DNA of 64,000 nt from Methylomonas subterranea (lineage in GTDB: Bacteria; Pseudomonadota; Gammaproteobacteria; Methylococcales; Methylomonadaceae). Shown here one piece after another: positions 1,657 to 39,641 of this stretch. The translations under genes were made by a program, and so were the position numbers. Numbering within the stretch: the stretch's first letter is position 1; every line of letters begins with the position of its first letter. The notes under the pieces were generated by a model. The model searched no databases and was not told the origin of the DNA. It saw only the letters and a list, made by a program, of their open reading frames with translations. The stretch is taken from positions 1 to 64,000 of the forward strand of contig NZ_JANIBJ010000001.1 in assembly GCF_024505185.1 (NCBI RefSeq), given 5' to 3'.

Positions 1657-1673
1657 TTGGCAAGCGTTTTGCT
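1657..1673 (+). promoter_or_regulatory. Sigma-54 (-24/-12) promoter of the nifV operon
   Basis: TTGGCA and TTGCT elements place GG at 1659-1660 and GC at 1671-1672 with exactly ten bases between, the invariant sigma-54 spacing. Transcription should start near 1684, leaving a leader of about 40 bases before nifV at 1723. With the NifA site upstream, this is a canonical nif promoter. The rest of 1261-1722 shows no gene. Confidence 0.85.
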
Positions 1674-1722
1674 TTATAGCTATCGACAGTGTTTTCCACG
1701 TTACGGTACTTAGGGTTCAGCC

Positions 1723-2847
1723 ATGACACTCCGCTCGCGCAACATCATTATCGATGACACCACGCTCCGCGATGGCGAACAATCGGCTGGCGTGGTGTTT
1801 TCCCTGGATGAAAAAATCGCCATTGCCGGGCAACTGGCCGCGCTGGGCGTACCGGAACTGGAGATCGGTATTCCCGCCATGGGCGCCCAGGAACGCGAAG
1901 AGATCAAGGCCATCGCGGCAATGAAGCTGCCTTGCAATTTGTTGGTGTGGTCCAGAATGCGCAAGGACGATTTGAAGCATAGCCTGGGTCTGGGCGTGGG
2001 AACGGTGGATTTATCCATTTCCGCTTCCGATCAACACATACAGCACAAACTGAAACAAAGCCGGGCCTGGGTGCTGGAAACCATCGATTATTGCGTGAAA
2101 GCCGCCGTCGATGCCGGACTGCACGTCTGCGTCGGCGCCGAGGATGCCTCGCGGGCCGACCGTGGTTTTCTGGCGCAAATGGCGGAAACCGCCCAACGGG
2201 CCGGAGCCATCCGCATCCGTTTCGCCGATACCGTCGGCATCATGGAACCGTTCGGGGTGTATGAAGCTATTCGCCAACTGCGCGCGGTTACCGAGATGGA
2301 TATCGAAATGCATGCGCATGATGATCTGGGACTGGCCACCGCCAACACCCTGGCAGCCGCTTATGCCGGCGCCACCCACCTGAATACTACCGTCAACGGT
2401 TTGGGCGAGCGGGCAGGCAATGCCGCGTTGGAAGAAGTGGTGGTGGGCTTGAAACAACTATACGGCATGGATTCAGGCGTGGACCTGCGCGATTTTCCCG
2501 CGCTGTCGCAACAGGTGGCAACAGCGTCCGGCGACACCATAGGCAGCCGCAAAAGCTTGATCGGCCGCGATGTCTTCAGTCACGAGGCCGGCATACATGT
2601 CGACGGCCTGCTGAAAGACCCCAACAATTACCAAGGCGTGGACCCGGCGTTGGTCGGGCGCAGCCATCAACTGGTGCTCGGCAAGCACTCCGGCAGTCAG
2701 GGCGTCATGCATGCCTACCAACAACTGGGCATCGCCATCAACCGCTGGCAGGCTGGCCGCCTGCTGCCGATGATCCGGCAATTCGTCAGTATTCACAAGC
2801 GCGCACCGCAAAGCGCTGATTTGAACCAATTTTTACTTAGCCTATAA
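1723..2847 (+). CDS. nifV: Homocitrate synthase NifV
   Basis: Condenses acetyl-CoA and 2-oxoglutarate to homocitrate, the organic ligand of the nitrogenase FeMo-cofactor. The 374-residue length is normal. The HMGL-like TIM barrel opens with TTLRDGEQ (residues 13-20). It also carries the metal-binding MHAHDDLGLA segment and GLGERAGNAALEE, both diagnostic of the homocitrate/isopropylmalate synthase family. There is no LeuA-type C-terminal regulatory domain, which together with the nif context separates it from leucine synthesis. It is the first gene behind the sigma-54 promoter and is followed after 12 bases by a small gene and then cysE, as in Azotobacter-type nif clusters. Confidence 0.95.
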   Translation: MTLRSRNIIIDDTTLRDGEQSAGVVFSLDEKIAIAGQLAALGVPELEIGIPAMGAQEREEIKAIAAMKLPCNLLVWSRMRKDDLKHSLGLGVGTVDLSISASDQHIQHKLKQSRAWVLETIDYCVKAAVDAGLHVCVGAEDASRADRGFLAQMAETAQRAGAIRIRFADTVGIMEPFGVYEAIRQLRAVTEMDIEMHAHDDLGLATANTLAAAYAGATHLNTTVNGLGERAGNAALEEVVVGLKQLYGMDSGVDLRDFPALSQQVATASGDTIGSRKSLIGRDVFSHEAGIHVDGLLKDPNNYQGVDPALVGRSHQLVLGKHSGSQGVMHAYQQLGIAINRWQAGRLLPMIRQFVSIHKRAPQSADLNQFLLSL

Positions 2848-2859
2848 AAGAGGTGTCCG

Positions 2860-3027
2860 ATGAACAGTAAACGTCAAAAACCAGCCGTACCGACCGTTGG
2901 CAAACTGGAGTCGGTGCAACCGAATCATCCGCCATTCGACGCGCAGGACGACCGTTACCCAGGCAGTTTCTTTCGGGTTCCCGGCATACCGGCACCCGGC
3001 AAAACCACCTGGAGCTTGGCAAAATGA
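2860..3027 (+). CDS. 55-residue protein between nifV and cysE
   Basis: Small soluble protein of unknown function, not recognised. It starts [10 protein letters not shown] and ends TTWSLAK. It is rich in proline, with a central acidic and aromatic stretch DAQDDRYPG, and has no cysteine or membrane segment. AGAGGTG lies just upstream of the ATG. The stop overlaps the cysE start as ATGA, which indicates translational coupling and argues that it is a real gene. The position inside a nif operon suggests an accessory role, but nothing in the sequence names it. Confidence 0.7.
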
Positions 3028-3803
3028 TGTTTTTTTCACCGCCCCGGCCCAGCGCCGCGCCGGGTTTATGGCAGGACTGGCGCGAAGATGTGGCGTGCGT
3101 ATTCGCCCGCGACCCGGCCGCCAGGAATCTGTTGGAAGTATTACTGGCTTATCCGGGCGTGCATGCGGTGCTGTTGTACCGGCTTACCCATAGATTATGG
3201 TTGTCGGACTGGAAACTGTCGGCCCGGCTGGTGGCGGCTTTCGCCCGCTGGCTGACCAATGTCGACATCCATCCCGGCGCCACCATAGGCAAGCGCTTTT
3301 TTATCGATCACGGCGCCTGCGTGGTGATAGGCGAAACCTCGGAAATCGGCAACGATGTCACGCTGTACCACGGCGTAACCTTGGGCGGCACCACCTGGAA
3401 CAAGGCCAAGCGCCATCCCACCCTGGGCGATAACGTATTGGTGGGTGCCGGCGCCAAGATTCTGGGCGCCATCACGCTGGGCGACAACGTCAGAGTGGGA
3501 GCCAATTCGGTGGTGATCAAGGATGTGCCGGCCTGCTGCACGGTAATAGGCATACCCGGCCGCATCATTCAACAAAAAGGCGTCAAGATTCAAAATCCGC
3601 GCGGTATCGATCTGGACCACCATCTGGTGCCCGATCCGATCGGCAAAGCCATCAATTGCCTGGTGGAAAGACTGGATAAATTGGAAGCCAATCAGGAACG
3701 ATTCGTCACGCTGGACAGCGAAAATTGCGACAGTTGCGAATCGGAAGGCGTCTGCCACGGTGACGACAAAATTATTTTGAAACAGGCGGCGGGTGGACAG
3801 TAA
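3024..3803 (+). CDS. cysE: Serine O-acetyltransferase, nif-linked
   Basis: Transfers acetyl from acetyl-CoA to L-serine, the committing step of cysteine synthesis. In nif operons this raises cysteine supply for Fe-S cluster assembly. The 259-residue protein has a helical N-terminal part and a left-handed parallel beta-helix (about 85-185) containing [20 protein letters not shown] and [10 protein letters not shown]. The C-terminal tail contains [10 protein letters not shown], a small cysteine cluster that could bind metal or form a redox switch; this is speculative. An alternative ATG lies one codon downstream. It overlaps the upstream small gene by 4 bases and the next gene by one base (TAATG). 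Confidence 0.93.
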
Positions 3804-4309
3804 TGGATCTATTGGAATTTGAAGCCAAGGACTTGTATTTCGAGCAAGAAGACAGCGCGGAAGTACAGACGTTGATCCAATACGCCTCGGAATTATATGC
3901 CAGCGGTGAAGCCGAACTGCCGCTGTTGCAAGCTTTTTTACGCGCCCCCGATTCCATCAACGTGCTGGTATCGCTAAACCGGTTTTATTACTACCAGCAC
4001 AGGCTGGAAGAAGCCTTACTGATCTCCGAGCGCGCATTGAGTCTGATCCGGCGGGAAATAGAGTTTCCGGACGATTGGCGGCAACTGGACGAAACGCATA
4101 TCACTCAGGCGCCGAAGGATTGGCTGACCCGGGTCAGGCTGTATCTGTTTACCCTGAAGTCGATCGGATTTTTGAACATGCGCATGGAGAATCTGGAGCT
4201 CAGTCGCGGCATCTTCGAAAAACTGGTGGCGTTGGACGACAGGGATCGCATCGGCGCCAAGGCACTTTTGGAGTTGGTGTTACAAAGACAACAGGCAGCG
4301 GTTGCCTGA
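3803..4309 (+). CDS. Nif-operon helical-repeat (TPR-like) protein, paralogue 1
   Basis: A 168-residue, apparently all-helical soluble protein whose pattern resembles tetratricopeptide repeats, especially RFYYYQHRLEEALLISERAL and LYLFTLKSIGFLNMRMENLE. I do not recognise a named family. The gene at 33435-33941 encodes a same-length relative. There FYFYQGRLQEAE, LYTLKALAFIKLR and LDPQDKSGA align with FYYYQHRLEEAL, LFTLKSIGFLNMR and LDDRDRIGA here. Having one copy in each nif arm suggests a scaffold or chaperone role in nitrogenase maturation, which is inference. Translation is coupled to cysE. Confidence 0.8.
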   Translation: MDLLEFEAKDLYFEQEDSAEVQTLIQYASELYASGEAELPLLQAFLRAPDSINVLVSLNRFYYYQHRLEEALLISERALSLIRREIEFPDDWRQLDETHITQAPKDWLTRVRLYLFTLKSIGFLNMRMENLELSRGIFEKLVALDDRDRIGAKALLELVLQRQQAAVA

Positions 4310-4360
4310 CACGGGGGAGAGCGGTCGCTCTCGGGAGAAGCAATGTTTGAGGTATTTGTG

Positions 4361-4465
4361 ATGTTGAGAGAAAAGCTGGATTCGACGCTGGTACCGGCGG
4401 TGCTGTTTGCAATATTGGTGATTTATTTGCTGAGCAGCGACCCCGGCATAGTAGGGCCGTTTTAG
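4361..4465 (+). CDS. 34-residue single-span membrane peptide, copy 1
   Basis: Very short gene: MLREKLDSTL, then a hydrophobic span of about 16 residues (VPAVLFAILVIYLL), then SSDPGIVGPF. I prefer the ATG at 4361, because GAGG lies eight bases upstream and the resulting N-terminus aligns with the next small gene. An in-frame ATG at 4343, also preceded by a purine-rich GGGAG, would give 40 residues. It resembles the 4538-4660 product in order of features: MLxxK, D, a hydrophobic span, LVxYxL, then DxG. Function unknown. Predicted to insert in the inner membrane. Confidence 0.6.
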   Translation: MLREKLDSTLVPAVLFAILVIYLLSSDPGIVGPF

Positions 4466-4466
4466 G

Positions 4467-4490
4467 GCGGCGTAATAACCGCCGCTTTTG
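4467..4490 (+). terminator. Hairpin between the two small membrane-peptide genes
   Basis: GCGGCG (4467-4472) pairs with CGCCGC (4480-4485) around a seven-base loop, followed by TTTTG. It begins one base after the stop of the first small gene. The short U-run makes it a weak or partial terminator, or an RNA-processing or stabilising stem that sets dosage within the operon. Confidence 0.45.
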
Positions 4491-4537
4491 TTTCCGCGGG
4501 TGGGTTTTGCCCATCCTTCATTTTAAAGGTGATTATC

Positions 4538-4660
4538 ATGCTTAAACATAAATCCGATCCTTTTCTGGCCCAGGCATCCCTGATGCTGGTGATTATGTTG
4601 GTGATGTATGCTCTGGGTGGCGATAGCGGCAATCTGGATCACCTGATAGCCGCGAGGTAG
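4538..4660 (+). CDS. 40-residue single-span membrane peptide, copy 2
   Basis: The product starts MLKHKSDPFL, has a hydrophobic segment ASLMLVIMLVMYAL and ends GGDSGNLDHLIAAR. AAAGGTG precedes the ATG at good spacing, and the last codons carry GAGG, which serves as ribosome binding site for nifW five bases after the stop. It looks like a tandem paralogue of the 4361-4465 product. The N-terminus is positively charged and short, so cytoplasmic-in orientation is expected. Not recognised; possibly a membrane anchor or a subunit of a respiratory or electron-transfer complex, both speculative. Confidence 0.65.
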   Translation: MLKHKSDPFLAQASLMLVIMLVMYALGGDSGNLDHLIAAR

Positions 4661-4664
4661 CTTT

Positions 4665-4979
4665 ATGAGTTTAGAAGACGATATGGAAGAACTGGAATCC
4701 GCCGAGGATTTCTTACAGTACTTTGGGCTGGAATACGATCAAACCATAGTCCACGTCAACCGTTTGCATATTTTGCAGCGCTTCCACGACTATCTGGATA
4801 AGGGCGGCGAGTCCTTGCCGGAAGATGAGGACAGCAAGCGGCAAGTCTACAAAAGTCTGCTGGCGCGGGCCTATGCCGACTTCGTGGACTCCAACGCGCA
4901 GACCGAAAAAGTATTCAAGGTCTTCAACATGCCGGATCCGCAAAACGTGTTCGTCGCGCTCAGCGATATCAAGACATGA
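4665..4979 (+). CDS. nifW: Nitrogenase stabilising protein NifW
   Basis: NifW associates with the MoFe protein and helps it mature or withstand oxygen. The 104-residue length and the pattern DMEELESAEDFLQYF, VNRLHILQRFHDYL and ARAYADFV...KVFKVF match the family. It is soluble and acidic at the N-terminus. The stop overlaps the nifZ start as ATGA, and the order nifW-nifZ-nifM is the Azotobacter one. The ribosome binding site lies inside the end of the preceding small gene. Confidence 0.93.
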   Translation: MSLEDDMEELESAEDFLQYFGLEYDQTIVHVNRLHILQRFHDYLDKGGESLPEDEDSKRQVYKSLLARAYADFVDSNAQTEKVFKVFNMPDPQNVFVALSDIKT

Positions 4980-5455
4980 GAGAAGAGCGCTTCGACGAAG
5001 GCCGCTTCGAATACGGCGAGGCGGTCAGGATCACTCGCAACGTGCGCAATGACGGTACCTACCCCGGCAAGGAAGTGGGCGACCTGTTGATACGCCGGGG
5101 CAGTGTCGGCAACGTCATCGAAGTCGGCACCTTTTTGCAGGACCAGGTGATTTACACCGTGCACTTTTTGGATCAGGGCCGCATGGTGGGTTGCCGGCTG
5201 GAGGAGTTGATTCCGGCCGATGCGCCCTGGAATCCCAGCCGCTTCGAGTTTCGCGATCTGGTGGTCTGCAGCATAGACCTGGGTGTGCAGGGCAATGTAT
5301 TGGTGGAAAAAGGCACGGAAGGCGAAGTGCTGAAAGTGTTGCGCGAAACCTTGCCGCTGCAATACCACGTTCGCTTTCCCGGCAGGACGCTGCAAGTGCC
5401 GGAAAGCGTGCTGGAGCCGGCCGATCCGAAAAACTTTAGAGAACCGGAGGATTGA
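4976..5455 (+). CDS. nifZ: Nitrogen fixation protein NifZ
   Basis: NifZ acts in maturation of the P-clusters of the MoFe protein. The 159 residues form two similar SH3-like halves. The first (about 10-80) runs from FEYGEAVRI through GDLLIRRGSVGNV to GCRLEELIP. The second (about 85-150) runs from FEFRDLVVC through LVEKGTEGEVLKV to VPESVLEP. The duplication is part of the family. It overlaps nifW by 4 bases, and its stop overlaps the nifM start region. Confidence 0.93.
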   Translation: MREERFDEGRFEYGEAVRITRNVRNDGTYPGKEVGDLLIRRGSVGNVIEVGTFLQDQVIYTVHFLDQGRMVGCRLEELIPADAPWNPSRFEFRDLVVCSIDLGVQGNVLVEKGTEGEVLKVLRETLPLQYHVRFPGRTLQVPESVLEPADPKNFREPED

Positions 5456-5457
5456 TG

Positions 5458-6312
5458 ATGAGCCCTACGTCCGAAGCTGCCATTGAACCTTATACCCTGT
5501 TGCGGGCCTCGTTAAGCCTGTTCAAAAAAGCCCCCACCGAGCTGGAGAACCAACAGTTGTCGCAGGCGCAAAGGCAGGCCAAAAACGAATACGAAATCGA
5601 AACCCGGGTGTTGAACTCCAACGAAGCGGCCAGCGTGATCGTCTCCGACCAGGAAGTCGCCAATGCCTTCGCCGAGGTCAGGGCACGGTTCGACGATGAT
5701 GATGCCTTTGAAGCGGCGTTGCTGGCCAACCGCTTGACCACGGAAAGCCTGAGGGCGGCGCTGTCGCGGCAATGCAAGGTCAACAGCGTGTTGGAAAAAG
5801 TAGCGGCGCGGGCACCCAAGGTCAACGAGGTGGAAGTGGGGATTTTTTACCACTCGCATCCGGAAAAATTTCATATTCCCGAGCAGCGTATAGCCCGGCA
5901 TATCCTGATCAGCATCAACCCGGATTACCCGGAGAATACCCGCGAGAACGCCTTTGCGCGCATCACGGAAATTGCCGAAACCCTGAAGCGCAAGCCGCAC
6001 AAGTTCGCCAATCTGGCCCTGAAGAATTCCGAGTGCCCCACGGCCCTGAACGGCGGCGAACTTGGAACCGTGGTGCAAGGCAAGCTGTACCCGGAACTGG
6101 ACGCGGCCTTGTTTCAACTGAAGGAAAATCAGATCAGCGCCATCGTGGAAACCGAAGTCGGATTTCACCTGATTCAATGCAGCAAAATTATTCGGGCCGA
6201 GACCATGTCCTTGAAAAATGCCACGCCCAAGATCAAACAAATCATGCAGGAACGTTCCCGGCGCAGATGCCAACGTAGTTGGTTGGCCAGCCTGCCGGCT
6301 GTAAAATCCTAG
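5458..6312 (+). CDS. nifM: Peptidyl-prolyl isomerase NifM
   Basis: NifM is a parvulin-type prolyl isomerase needed to activate the nitrogenase Fe protein NifH. The N-terminal half (about 1-125) is helical, and the C-terminal PpiC domain (about 135-265) includes IARHILISINPDYPENT, GELGTVVQGKLYPELD and VETEVGFHLIQ. The ATG at 5458 stands seven bases after GGAGG; ATG 5455 and TTG 5452 are alternatives. No signal peptide is visible, so it acts in the cytoplasm, unlike most parvulins of the SurA/PrsA type. It ends shortly before clpX. Confidence 0.93.
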   Translation: MSPTSEAAIEPYTLLRASLSLFKKAPTELENQQLSQAQRQAKNEYEIETRVLNSNEAASVIVSDQEVANAFAEVRARFDDDDAFEAALLANRLTTESLRAALSRQCKVNSVLEKVAARAPKVNEVEVGIFYHSHPEKFHIPEQRIARHILISINPDYPENTRENAFARITEIAETLKRKPHKFANLALKNSECPTALNGGELGTVVQGKLYPELDAALFQLKENQISAIVETEVGFHLIQCSKIIRAETMSLKNATPKIKQIMQERSRRRCQRSWLASLPAVKS

Positions 6313-7840: not shown

Positions 7841-8458
7841 ATGAGTACTAAAGAAACCATCCTCAAACAAATCGCCGATAACCCGGTCATCCTGTATATG
7901 AAAGGGGTGCCGACCGCGCCTGAATGCGGGTTTTCCGGCAAAACCGTGGATATCCTCAATGCCACCAAGATACCTTATGCCTATGTCGACGTGCTGAGAG
8001 CGCCGTTTATTCGCGACCGGCTGCCGTCGGTATCGAAATGGCCGACCTTTCCGCAGCTGTTCGTCAAGGGCGAGCTGGTGGGCGGCGCCGATATCGTCGA
8101 AGCCATGAACAACGACGGCAGCTTGCTGCCCTTGCTGCAAAGCGCGGTCAAACCCGCCGAGGATGCGGCGGCAAGTAATGTCATCAGCCATTCCGAAGTG
8201 GAGGCTTTGATTCTGGGCGCCTATCCCGATGCGCAAATCGCCATAGAAGGCCAGGGCTGCGACTTGACGATAAGGGTGGTCAGCGCGCAATTCGCCGATT
8301 TGAGCATGGTCAAGCAGCACCAGGGCGTCATGGCCACCTTGACTGAACCCCTGGCCAGCGGACGTCTGCACGCGGTGACCTTGAAAACCTTTACCCCCGA
8401 ACAATGGCAGGCTCAACAGCCCGCTCCGCAAGCCGGTTTACTGCAAATTCAACTTTGA
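7841..8458 (+). CDS. Monothiol glutaredoxin-BolA fusion
   Basis: Two domains in one 205-residue chain. Residues 1-105 are a Grx4/Grx5-type monothiol glutaredoxin with the CGFS site (Cys29), WPTFPQLFV and GGADIVEAMN. Residues 115-190 are a BolA/IbaG domain with the conserved RLHAVTLKTF (His177) and a cysteine, Cys140, in the variable loop. CGFS glutaredoxins and BolA proteins usually form heterodimers around a shared [2Fe-2S] cluster, so the fusion makes that complex covalent. It lies just upstream of nifF, in the place where nif-specific monothiol glutaredoxins occur in Azotobacter. The likely role is carrying Fe-S clusters to nitrogenase maturation proteins (inference). Confidence 0.9.
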   Translation: MSTKETILKQIADNPVILYMKGVPTAPECGFSGKTVDILNATKIPYAYVDVLRAPFIRDRLPSVSKWPTFPQLFVKGELVGGADIVEAMNNDGSLLPLLQSAVKPAEDAAASNVISHSEVEALILGAYPDAQIAIEGQGCDLTIRVVSAQFADLSMVKQHQGVMATLTEPLASGRLHAVTLKTFTPEQWQAQQPAPQAGLLQIQL

Positions 8459-8483
8459 TTTTATTAATAATGGAGAAACGATC

Positions 8484-9017
8484 ATGGCCAAAGTAGGCAT
8501 ATTTTTTGGAACAGACACCGGTAATTCGCGCAAAGTCGCCAAAACCATACACAAACAACTGGGTGACGAATTGGCGGACAAACCCGTCAACATCAGCAAG
8601 GCCACGGTCGACGATTTGCTGGCTTACGATGTATTGATCATCGGCACCCCCACCTACGGCGACGGCGAATTGCCCGGCCTGACCGCCGGTACTTCGGCCG
8701 AAAGCTGGGAAGAGTTCATGCCGCAGCTGGCCGGCGCGGATTTCTCCGGTAAAACCATAGCTTTGTACGGCTTGGGCGATCAGGTCGGTTATCCGGATAA
8801 TTTCGTCGACGCGCTGGGCATGCTATACGATGCCTTTGCCGATTGCGGCGCCAGTTTCGTCGGTGCCACGTCTACCGCCGGCTACGATTACAATAAATCC
8901 AAGGCAGCGATGGGCGACGAGTTTGTCGGCTTGGTGCTGGATGAAGACAACCAAAAAGAGCTGAGCGAAGACCGTCTACAGGACTGGTTGAAACAAATCG
9001 AATCCAGCTGGGCCTGA
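8484..9017 (+). CDS. nifF: Flavodoxin NifF
   Basis: FMN-binding electron donor to the nitrogenase Fe protein. The phosphate-binding loop is GTDTGNSRKVA (about residues 9-19). GTPTYGDGELPG and YGLGDQVGYPDNF form the isoalloxazine-binding loops. At 177 residues it is a long-chain flavodoxin. GGAG precedes the ATG, 25 bases after the glutaredoxin-BolA stop. Its place behind the nif operon supports NifF rather than a housekeeping FldA. Confidence 0.92.
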   Translation: MAKVGIFFGTDTGNSRKVAKTIHKQLGDELADKPVNISKATVDDLLAYDVLIIGTPTYGDGELPGLTAGTSAESWEEFMPQLAGADFSGKTIALYGLGDQVGYPDNFVDALGMLYDAFADCGASFVGATSTAGYDYNKSKAAMGDEFVGLVLDEDNQKELSEDRLQDWLKQIESSWA

Positions 9018-9027
9018 TTTCGCTTTT

Positions 9028-9429
9028 ATGCAGGCGCTGCCCGCCGAGGTGTTGACCGAAACCGGCTTCGTGACGGTGGATGTGGTGCTGCACAGCCAGA
9101 CGGCGCGCGCCCGGCGGGCCAATGTGCTGGTGATTCGGTATCGGGGCCGAGTGTATGCGTATGTGAACCATTGCATGCACATGCACCGGCCCCTGAATTG
9201 TCAGGAAGATGCGGTGTTCGACGCCGAACGGCGCTGGTTGCGTTGTTCGATGCATGGCTTTATTTTCGAGCCGGACAGCGGAATCTGCCGCAGCCCGGTC
9301 TGCGAGGGTCAAGCCCTGCAAGCGGTCAAGGTGGAGGAAACAGACGGCCTGATCGTGTTCAAGGAAAAACAGCTGCAAATTCTGGCTGTGCAATCGCCCA
9401 AGGCCGAGGTCGGATTAAAGCATGATTGA
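9028..9429 (+). CDS. Rieske-type [2Fe-2S] ferredoxin
   Basis: 133-residue small Rieske protein. The ligands are visible as CMH (Cys49, His51) and CSMH (Cys73, His76), with a 21-residue spacer. No membrane segment or oxygenase catalytic domain is present, so it is a soluble electron carrier or a regulatory redox subunit. It starts 11 bases after nifF and overlaps the next gene by 8 bases, so the three form one unit. A role in moving electrons to or from the flavodoxin is plausible but not shown. Confidence 0.85.
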   Translation: MQALPAEVLTETGFVTVDVVLHSQTARARRANVLVIRYRGRVYAYVNHCMHMHRPLNCQEDAVFDAERRWLRCSMHGFIFEPDSGICRSPVCEGQALQAVKVEETDGLIVFKEKQLQILAVQSPKAEVGLKHD

Positions 9430-9853
9430 AGAAACCGCCATTGTCACCCGCATCGAGGACGGTCAGGTGTGGATCAAAAGCCTGCAAGGCGGAGCTTGCG
9501 GAGGCTGCATGCAACAAAGCAGCTGCGGCACGGCTAGCTTGTCCAAATGGTTGCCGAAACGGGAGTTTGCGGTGGAAAGCGATCAAGCGCTAACAGTCGG
9601 CGATCAGGTGCGGGTGGGCATAGACGACTCGCATGTGTTGTTGAGTTCCATCGTGCTGTACCTGCTACCCATCCTGGTGATGTTGCTTGGGGTAGGGCTG
9701 GCCAATAGCTTTTTATCTCCCGCTTTTACCGAAGCCTGGTTGCCGGAATTGTCCCTGGGTTTGCTGTTGGCGACCTTTTGGGTCATACACAAGCTGCAGC
9801 ATGTCTTGCTGTTGTATTTTTGTTTCCGGCCGCAAATCGTCGGCAGGCTTTGA
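9422..9853 (+). CDS. RseC/MucC-family (SoxR-reducing) membrane protein
   Basis: A 143-residue inner-membrane protein: a cytoplasmic N-terminal part with CGGCMQQSSC (Cys26, Cys29, Cys35), then two membrane segments (about 74-95 and 105-125). RseC homologues act with Rnf/Rsx electron-transport complexes. In diazotrophs Rnf drives reduced ferredoxin or flavodoxin supply to nitrogenase, so the position next to nifF is meaningful. No rnf genes are in the window. Confidence 0.82.
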   Translation: MIEETAIVTRIEDGQVWIKSLQGGACGGCMQQSSCGTASLSKWLPKREFAVESDQALTVGDQVRVGIDDSHVLLSSIVLYLLPILVMLLGVGLANSFLSPAFTEAWLPELSLGLLLATFWVIHKLQHVLLLYFCFRPQIVGRL

Positions 9854-33438: not shown

Positions 33439-33941
33439 GCGGCCTCCGGCTCCAAAGCGGCGGACAATTGCATGATCACCGACGCGCCGGACTTGTCTTG
33501 CGGATCCAGCACTGCCATCGCCGCCAAAACGGCACGGGCTTCGTCGGCCAGATCCTGGCGCAGTTTGATGAAGGCCAGCGCTTTCAGGGTATACAGATAA
33601 AACAGAGCAGTGTCGCTGGCATACATATCCCATTCGCCGGCTTGGCCGGCGAGTTGGCGGAAATCGGCCGGAAAATTGCCTTGCCGCGCGGCTTGATCCA
33701 AACCGGCCAGCACTTCGCGTTCGGCTTCCTGCAAACGGCCTTGGTAAAAATAAAACTTGTACAAGGCGAAATAGGTTTGCAGGCAGTTGGGGTCGAGTTG
33801 CTGGGCCTGTTTGAACAGTTTTTCCGCCAGCGGTTTTTCGGCATGGCTGGCCGCCACCGCCTGTTGCAGCAATTGGTTTACCGCCTCGGGCAAGTTGGGG
33901 CTGAACAGCACCCGTTCTTCAAAGATCAGTCTTGGCGTCAT
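33435..33941 (-). CDS. Nif-linked helical-repeat (TPR-like) protein, paralogue 2
   Basis: 168 residues, all-helical, the same length as the protein encoded at 3803-4309 and clearly related to it in the central and C-terminal parts (KFYFYQGRLQEAEREVLAGL, LFYLYTLKALAFIKLR, VLDPQDKSGASVIMQL). The TPR-like stretch AEKLFKQAQQLDPNCLQTYF is better preserved here. It starts 3 bases after the ferredoxin gene and overlaps the next gene by 4. Probable protein-protein interaction role. Confidence 0.8.
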   Translation of the reverse strand: MTPRLIFEERVLFSPNLPEAVNQLLQQAVAASHAEKPLAEKLFKQAQQLDPNCLQTYFALYKFYFYQGRLQEAEREVLAGLDQAARQGNFPADFRQLAGQAGEWDMYASDTALFYLYTLKALAFIKLRQDLADEARAVLAAMAVLDPQDKSGASVIMQLSAALEPEAA

Positions 33942-39622: not shown

Positions 39623-39641
39623 AAGCAACCAATGTGCCAGC
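39623..39641 (-). promoter_or_regulatory. Sigma-54 (-24/-12) promoter of the nifE operon
   Basis: On the minus strand the sequence reads TGGCACATTGGTTGCTTTG, a near-perfect sigma-54 site with GG and GC ten bases apart. The predicted start is about 20-22 bases upstream of the nifE ATG. Confidence 0.88.

Follow-up and report, generated by a model that had tools for sequence, protein, structure and literature searches.

Small predicted membrane peptides encoded beside nifW in Methylomonas subterranea and other Methylomonadaceae

The stretch of DNA analysed here, referred to as the window, comprises positions 1-64,000 of contig NZ_JANIBJ010000001.1 of Methylomonas subterranea, and all coordinates refer to it. 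Within the window two very small genes, encoding peptides 1 and 2, lie in an operon-like series in the order nifV, cysE, a TPR-like ORF of 168 amino acids, peptide 1, peptide 2, nifW, nifZ and a nifM-like PPIase. The features of the locus are as follows:

1658-1674, plus strand: sigma-54 (-24/-12)-like promoter TGGCAAGCGTTTTGCTT, 5' of nifV, a pattern match
1723-2847, plus strand: nifV, homocitrate synthase (NCBIfam TIGR02660, E 4.8e-159)
3024-3803, plus strand: cysE, serine O-acetyltransferase (NCBIfam TIGR01172)
3803-4309, plus strand: nafH-like gene, 168-aa TPR-like protein (weak TPR match, below cut-off)
4349-4353, plus strand: Shine-Dalgarno sequence GAGGT of peptide 1 (from sequence; spacing 7)
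4361-4465, plus strand: peptide 1, 34 aa, predicted single-span membrane protein, the widespread type
4466-4483, plus strand: hairpin with T-rich tail, directly 3' of peptide 1, partly kept in relatives
4498-4516, plus strand: second hairpin, in the gap between peptides 1 and 2 (fold prediction)
4526-4533, plus strand: Shine-Dalgarno sequence AAGGTGAT of peptide 2 (from sequence)
4538-4660, plus strand: peptide 2, 40 aa, predicted single-span membrane protein, diverged tandem copy
4654-4660, plus strand: GAGGTAG, the final Arg codon and stop of peptide 2 and also the nifW Shine-Dalgarno sequence
4665-4979, plus strand: nifW (Pfam PF03206, E 1.4e-35)
4976-5455, plus strand: nifZ (Pfam PF04319)
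5452-6312, plus strand: nifM-like PPIase (Pfam PF00639; the name nifM is inferred from position)

The sigma-54-like site at 1658 is a candidate for the point at which the operon may begin. The 168-aa ORF is probably NafH, a name that follows from gene order alone, because nafH precedes nifW in Azotobacter as described in PMC6016461; of 64 genomes tested for a homologue of this protein, 53 have one. Among named sequences, the NifW encoded in the window is closest to those of Methylomonas lenta and Methylomonas sp. WSC-6. Further along the same strand, 3' of clpX, positions 7841-9853 encode a glutaredoxin-BolA fusion, a flavodoxin, a Rieske protein and an RseC/MucC-family protein, a set that we read as the tail end of the nif series, concerned with oxidative stress or electron transfer.

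Peptide 1 has the sequence MLREKLDSTLVPAVLFAILVIYLLSSDPGIVGPF (4361-4465), while peptide 2, which starts at the ATG at 4538, reads MLKHKSDPFLAQASLMLVIMLVMYALGGDSGNLDHLIAAR (4538-4660). An in-frame ATG at 4343 would extend peptide 1 to 40 aa; the ATG at 4361 is, however, the best start because relatives align either to this position or to three codons upstream. A reading of the window made from its letters alone, termed here the sequence-only reading, had described two short genes of 34 and 40 residues, each with a good ribosome site, a single hydrophobic span and a shared sequence pattern. Both ORFs are indeed present, each preceded by the ribosome site listed above, both products are predicted single-span membrane proteins, and the common pattern is evident (MLREKLD...LVIYLLSSDPG in peptide 1 and MLKHKSD...LVMYALGGDSG in peptide 2). 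Across the family the single-span peptides range from about 32 to 44 aa. The same reading suggested that the genes had arisen by tandem duplication, a view that gains support from direct comparison of the two sequences. BLASTP aligned the peptides with 13 of 31 positions identical (E 6e-5, as a single comparison), and comparison of their profiles with hhalign gave a probability of 96% and a score of 37.5, a value reached by none of 450 column permutations (best permuted score 32.2) in a run that employed strict parsing and from which gap-rich columns had been removed. An earlier permutation run contained two outliers, of 130.8 and 146.0, that exceeded the real score, and a loose table parser is the suspected cause. 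Judged by these alignments, peptides 1 and 2 are homologous members of one family.

The proposal that the genes are too small for normal annotation fits the library searches, in which neither peptide had a credible Pfam or NCBIfam match. The longer reading of peptide 1 gave a weak match to FrdC (E 0.099), which was rejected. When 41 relatives of peptide 1 were searched, Pfam returned MitoNEET_N (2 sequences, E 0.0012), PsbH (2, E 0.04) and FixQ (1, E 0.11), and NCBIfam returned SosA (1, E 0.014), ComGE (1, E 0.017), YohP (1, E 0.023) and KdpF (2, E 0.094); all were taken as chance because hydrophobic helices give such matches. Among 14 relatives of peptide 2 there was a single Pfam model match at 0.051, also taken as chance, and no NCBIfam match. 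The peptide-1 profile matched nothing in the PDB, while three PDB matches of the peptide-2 profile (E 2.8-3.9 over 11 residues) were rejected. An Rfam scan of positions 3700-5100 returned one sub-threshold match only, on the opposite strand. In open PubMed Central full text, no title or beginning of an abstract among the matches listed indicated a paper on such a peptide. The peptides may already be annotated, as a bare hypothetical protein, in databases beyond those named.

The pattern of substitution suggests that the ORFs are maintained for their products. The sequence-only reading had staked its claim on two observations, loss of the reading frames in relatives and substitution typical of noncoding DNA, either of which would have told against it. 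The frames are kept in dozens of genomes, and substitution is of the purifying type. The median dN/dS is 0.18 both for peptide 1 within Methylomonas, where 17 of 21 pairs were usable, and for peptide 2, with 195 usable pairs of 231; among the remaining distinct peptide-1 genes, of which 45 of 78 were compared, it is 0.33 (517 usable pairs of 990). The 45 genes were the first 45 of the 78, 44 from other genera and one (G149) from the Methylomonas genus of the window. Saturated or too-close pairs were excluded, and no usable pair had a dN/dS above 1. Among 91 strong peptide-1 matches the start codon is ATG in 87 and TTG in 2, with no recognised start in the other 2; a Y followed by D or N is kept in all 91, and 89 end in GP[FLIYS], the exceptions being CPL (G090) and WPI (G129). 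The peptide-1 motif consists of a helix with F-x(5)-Y, a D about five residues past the Y, and a C-terminal GP; 41 aligned sequences show no variation at F, Y, G or P and very little at L and D. Fourteen peptide-2 sequences keep D7, F9, L10, Q12, M16, L17, Y24 and G27, such that the Y, and often the D, is retained and the GP is lost. Conservation is distributed differently in the two types, being strongest in the helix and outer tail of peptide 1 and at the inner end (DPFLAQ) of peptide 2. A ribosome site was found for 106 of 118 peptide genes, a proportion biased upward by starts having been picked partly by site match. Taken at the level of sequence, these data indicate that the ORFs encode proteins conserved as such, far beyond chance.

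In a first sample of 41 genomes, that of the window included, peptide 2 was detected in 20 (21 at E <= 1, the additional match, in G034 at E 0.44, being dropped as chance); seven genomes had peptide 1, an eighth match at E <= 1 being put down to chance. Named loci of Methylobacter, Methylomicrobium and others contain a peptide-1-like ORF 5' of nifW without peptide 2, and a peptide-1 profile built from these loci matched 119 of 237 Methylomonadaceae genomes at E <= 0.1. The family survey covered these 237 genomes, 127 with nifW and 110 without. The tie to the nif operon that had been claimed from the window alone extends to the family: reading of the nifW loci placed at least one peptide 5' of nifW in 113 of the 127 nifW-bearing genomes, of which 8 have both peptides, 84 the peptide-1 type and 21 the peptide-2 type. 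Of the remainder, 4 have only degenerate forms and 10 have no peptide. One of the 84 (G090) retains only a remnant of 18-22 aa, and in G177 there is a stop inside the searched stretch of the peptide. The 10 genomes without a peptide, the 4 degenerate cases and the G090 remnant argue that the peptide is dispensable in places. G083 has two nifW loci (contigs C164 and C233), one with the peptide and the other without. Among the 110 nifW-negative genomes a single one, G054, had a peptide at E < 1e-3. Its locus (L273) is a decayed nif cluster without nifW, in which an open peptide-1 gene lies beside a shortened nafH-like gene, and which also retains clpX and the glutaredoxin-BolA gene. Matches dropped as weak were those in G029 and at a second site in G000 (E 0.5), in G133 and G238 (E 0.04-0.07), and in nifW-negative genomes with E between 0.005 and 0.1. 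It should be emphasized that E-values at nifW loci derive from small fragment sets rather than whole genomes, and that nifW-positive genomes were typed by nifW search, save for G146, G151 and G095, which were entered on the basis of genome-wide peptide searches; L235 (G054, no nifW) was left out of the locus table.

None of the 51 nifW loci examined beyond Methylomonadaceae has such a peptide. In other Methylococcales families it was found 5' of nifW in 0 of 24 genomes, which represent 24 of the 28 nifW-positive genomes (ORF listing together with profiles covered 21, and profiles applied to oriented loci the other 3; G631, G644, G652 and G659 were left out). Similarly, all 36 matches in an order-level sample of 151 genomes fell within Methylomonadaceae. 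A class-level sample of 369 genomes gave no credible match beyond the family, though 32 of these genomes hold nifW over the cut-off; seven non-family matches (E 1e-4 to 6e-3) were rejected, as they span stops or sit in ORFs of 158-1066 aa. At this level 0 of 27 non-family nifW loci contained such an ORF, a count that includes one locus (L268) with only about 350 nt available 5' of nifW; in two of the 27, hydrophobic ORFs occur at distances above 140 nt but are unrelated. In none of these samples did profile or ORF searches detect the peptide family outside Methylomonadaceae.

The association with nifW extends to the spacing of the genes. In loci without peptide 2 the peptide-1 stop lies 10-31 nt from nifW in 72 of 83 cases and 41-426 nt away in the remaining 11. 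The peptide-2 stop lies 3-5 nt from nifW in all 27 loci, and in 26 of these the terminal codons, GAGGTAA or GAGGTAG, form the nifW ribosome site. The overlap of the second gene with the nifW ribosome site that had been noticed in the window is therefore borne out there (GAGGTAG, 4654-4660, within the end of peptide 2). Because the end of peptide 2 is also this ribosome site, its conserved C-terminal Arg may reflect a constraint on DNA rather than on protein, and the shared sequence also suggests that translation of the peptide is probably coupled to that of NifW. In six genomes (G060-G062 and G175-G177) the nafH-like gene is absent from the fetched stretch 5' of the peptide, and in G060 and G176 nifEN-type genes lie upstream of the peptide instead. 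The nafH-like gene is about 565 kb away in G060 and 34 kb away in G175, while the peptide is still 13-16 nt 5' of nifW. In rearranged clusters, then, the peptide remains with nifW and not with nafH.

A short hairpin had also been proposed between the two genes. The 72-nt gap folds with -26.5 kcal/mol (z -3.1 against shuffles) and holds not one but two terminator-like hairpins, at 4466-4483 and 4498-4516; strong folding is, however, not universal, as z ranged from -3.6 to +1.0 (mononucleotide shuffle) in the gaps of relatives at 8 loci. In the minimum-energy fold an upstream U-rich stretch pairs with part of the peptide-2 Shine-Dalgarno sequence, a part that is unpaired in the centroid. A tuning role of the gap hairpins is possible.

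Peptide 2 was seen only in the genus of the window, where it occurs in 29 of 30 nifW-positive genomes, and 21 of these 29 carriers lack peptide 1; peptide-bearing genera other than this one have peptide 1. The sequence-only reading had not anticipated that peptide 1 is the widespread form and peptide 2 a genus-restricted copy that often occurs alone. On the simplest reading peptide 1 is ancestral and peptide 2 arose in this genus, as a tandem duplicate that would then have diverged at both ends, with later losses of peptide 1 on more than one occasion. Peptide 2 seems able to replace peptide 1, and the locus exemplifies a gene of some 105 bases that was duplicated in tandem and then apparently replaced. 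A tree built on 51 loci from their NifW, NafH-like and CysE proteins does not fix the number of these events: the genus does not form one clade, because G018 (peptide 2 only) and G001 (no peptide) fall outside a group in which peptide-1-only genera are included, and the relevant nodes are weakly supported (0.17-0.85). No remnant of peptide 2 was seen in the long gap between peptide 1 and nifW in G142. A separate, second duplication is found in genus g34, where G223 (L137) has an intact and a decaying copy that share the start MSNEKEDSI, and where G227 (L133) and G230 (L134) have degenerate copies only.

Lys and Arg residues are more numerous before the span than after it in all 85 distinct peptide-1 sequences and in 17 of 19 peptide-2 sequences, the other two being ties. 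Based on this excess the N-terminus is predicted to be in the cytoplasm. AlphaFold models of 13 sequences consist of a helix at residues 10-25 and a short helix at 28-31, with a mean pLDDT of 79.9. Each peptide is predicted to form one helix with a cytoplasmic N-terminus and a C-tail that is short and acidic (in peptide 1, D....GP[FLI]) and would sit outside or in the lumen of the intracytoplasmic membranes. The helix conservation moment, which tests for a packing face, was not significant (p 0.07 and 0.19).

It could be argued, at about an even chance of being correct, that these are small single-span membrane accessory proteins dedicated to nif and packing against an integral-membrane partner. 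The helix and tail would pack against this partner as a small accessory subunit or adaptor, made only alongside nitrogenase, and the peptide would aid the membrane side of nitrogen fixation, either in electron or oxygen handling or, with NifW, at a membrane site for MoFe-protein maturation. An integral-membrane partner is favoured over a cytosolic one because conservation in peptide 1 is strongest in the helix and outer tail; the argument is weakened, however, by the conserved inner end of peptide 2. The divergent conservation of the outer tail of peptide 1 and the inner end of peptide 2, together with the loss of GP, fits one common partner only loosely. There are precedents for small subunits of this kind. 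CydX, CydY and CydZ are likewise of 30-40 aa, with one hydrophobic helix, lineage-restricted and hard to annotate, and are encoded in the operon of the enzyme served, cydAB, a placement similar to that of the peptides (PMC4325964). In contrast, the peptides have no cydAB neighbour, the nafH-like gene and nifW adjoining them instead, and among the Pfam and NCBIfam families listed they matched no Cyd small-subunit model. AcrZ and the regulator microproteins of transporters (PMC7267776) illustrate how a small transmembrane protein acts on a large membrane protein; by analogy the window peptides might do the same, but they are encoded in a nif operon and have no credible Pfam, NCBIfam or PDB match. 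KdpF (TIGR02115) and YohP are also small single-span proteins, whose matches to 2 and 1 of the 41 peptide-1 relatives (E 0.094 and 0.023) are at the chance level for short hydrophobic helices, and no kdp gene is a neighbour here.

Other explanations place the peptides in more specific settings. They could be membrane tethers of the NafH-NifW-NifZ pathway of MoFe-protein (P-cluster) maturation, the cytoplasmic end holding NifW or immature MoFe protein. The order of the genes in Azotobacter is also that in which NafH, NifW and NifZ bind immature MoFe protein, and the peptides belong to the same gene block and order (PMC6016461, PMC6484116). Such a role is consistent with the peptide adjoining nifW even where nafH has moved, with the probable coupling of its translation to that of nifW, and with the strongly conserved cytoplasmic end of peptide 2. 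The invariant residues of the widespread peptide 1, however, lie in the helix and outer tail rather than at the cytoplasmic end, and many bacteria have NifW without any such peptide, so that we consider a tether doubtful. It is equally unlikely, in our estimation, that the peptides are CydX-like accessory subunits of an electron-transfer or respiratory complex serving nitrogenase (Rnf, a terminal oxidase or pMMO), despite a size, single span and operon placement that resemble those of such subunits. In 64 chosen genomes rnfC is strong in 51 of 52 nifW-positive and 4 of 12 nifW-negative members, and within the window there is an RseC-family gene downstream (9422-9853). Among nifW-positive genomes, however, rnfC is strong in 34 of 34 with an intact peptide and in 17 of 18 that lack one (the 18 including G090 and the four degenerate cases), while G054 has the peptide and no strong rnfC; moreover, no rnf, oxidase or pmo gene is adjacent within the window. 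Across these genomes, therefore, the presence of the peptide did not track rnf genes: Rnf goes with nitrogen fixation here, and the peptide does not go with Rnf. As rnfC is equally present with and without an intact peptide, an obligatory Rnf subunit is unlikely; the electron-transfer role that the sequence-only reading had put forward as a possibility is neither supported nor excluded.

Two further possibilities discount either the location or the product. Type I toxins are similar to these peptides in size and hydrophobicity. That the peptides are toxin-like or membrane-stress peptides present in the operon by chance is nevertheless highly improbable, given their fixed position 5' of nifW across the family, their near absence from genomes without nifW and their own ribosome sites; YohP (E 0.023) and SosA (E 0.014) each match 1 of 41 peptide-1 relatives, which is the chance level. 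The ORFs could instead be leaders whose act of translation, and not product, regulates nifW, an idea suggested by the nifW ribosome site within peptide 2 and by the hairpins between the ORFs. Against this, purifying selection acts on the amino acids and residues are invariant, peptide 1 survives in G054, where nifW was not found, and in loci without peptide 2 it stops at least 10 nt 5' of nifW, making a leader function scarcely credible.

Whichever partner is served, the accessory-protein reading concerns a conserved gene that seems to have escaped notice in nif operons of a major methane-oxidising group, in which it is a constant neighbour of nifW. The peptides are predicted membrane proteins, whereas NafH, NifW and NifZ are described by copurification with the MoFe protein, and the text of PMC6016461 does not contain the word 'membrane'. 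A bolder proposal, which we regard as distinctly improbable, is that the peptides give the NafH-NifW-NifZ block its first dedicated membrane components, recruiting NifW and the maturing MoFe protein to the intracytoplasmic membrane of aerobic methanotrophs, where P-cluster assembly would occur at an oxygen-depleted, electron-rich site. If the peptides do act at the membrane they would provide a direct handle on how an O2-using methane oxidiser builds and feeds an oxygen-sensitive nitrogenase.

Elsewhere in the window, in the vicinity of the nifEN region, there is a second, diverged nafH-like copy (33459-33878, minus strand; 30% identity, E 9.4e-13), and two or more nafH-like matches occur in 32 of the 52 nifW-positive genomes of the tested set. 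A further sigma-54-like site, TGGCACATTGGTTGCTT, which is a good match to the pattern, lies at 39639 on the minus strand, just 5' of a nifE-type gene.
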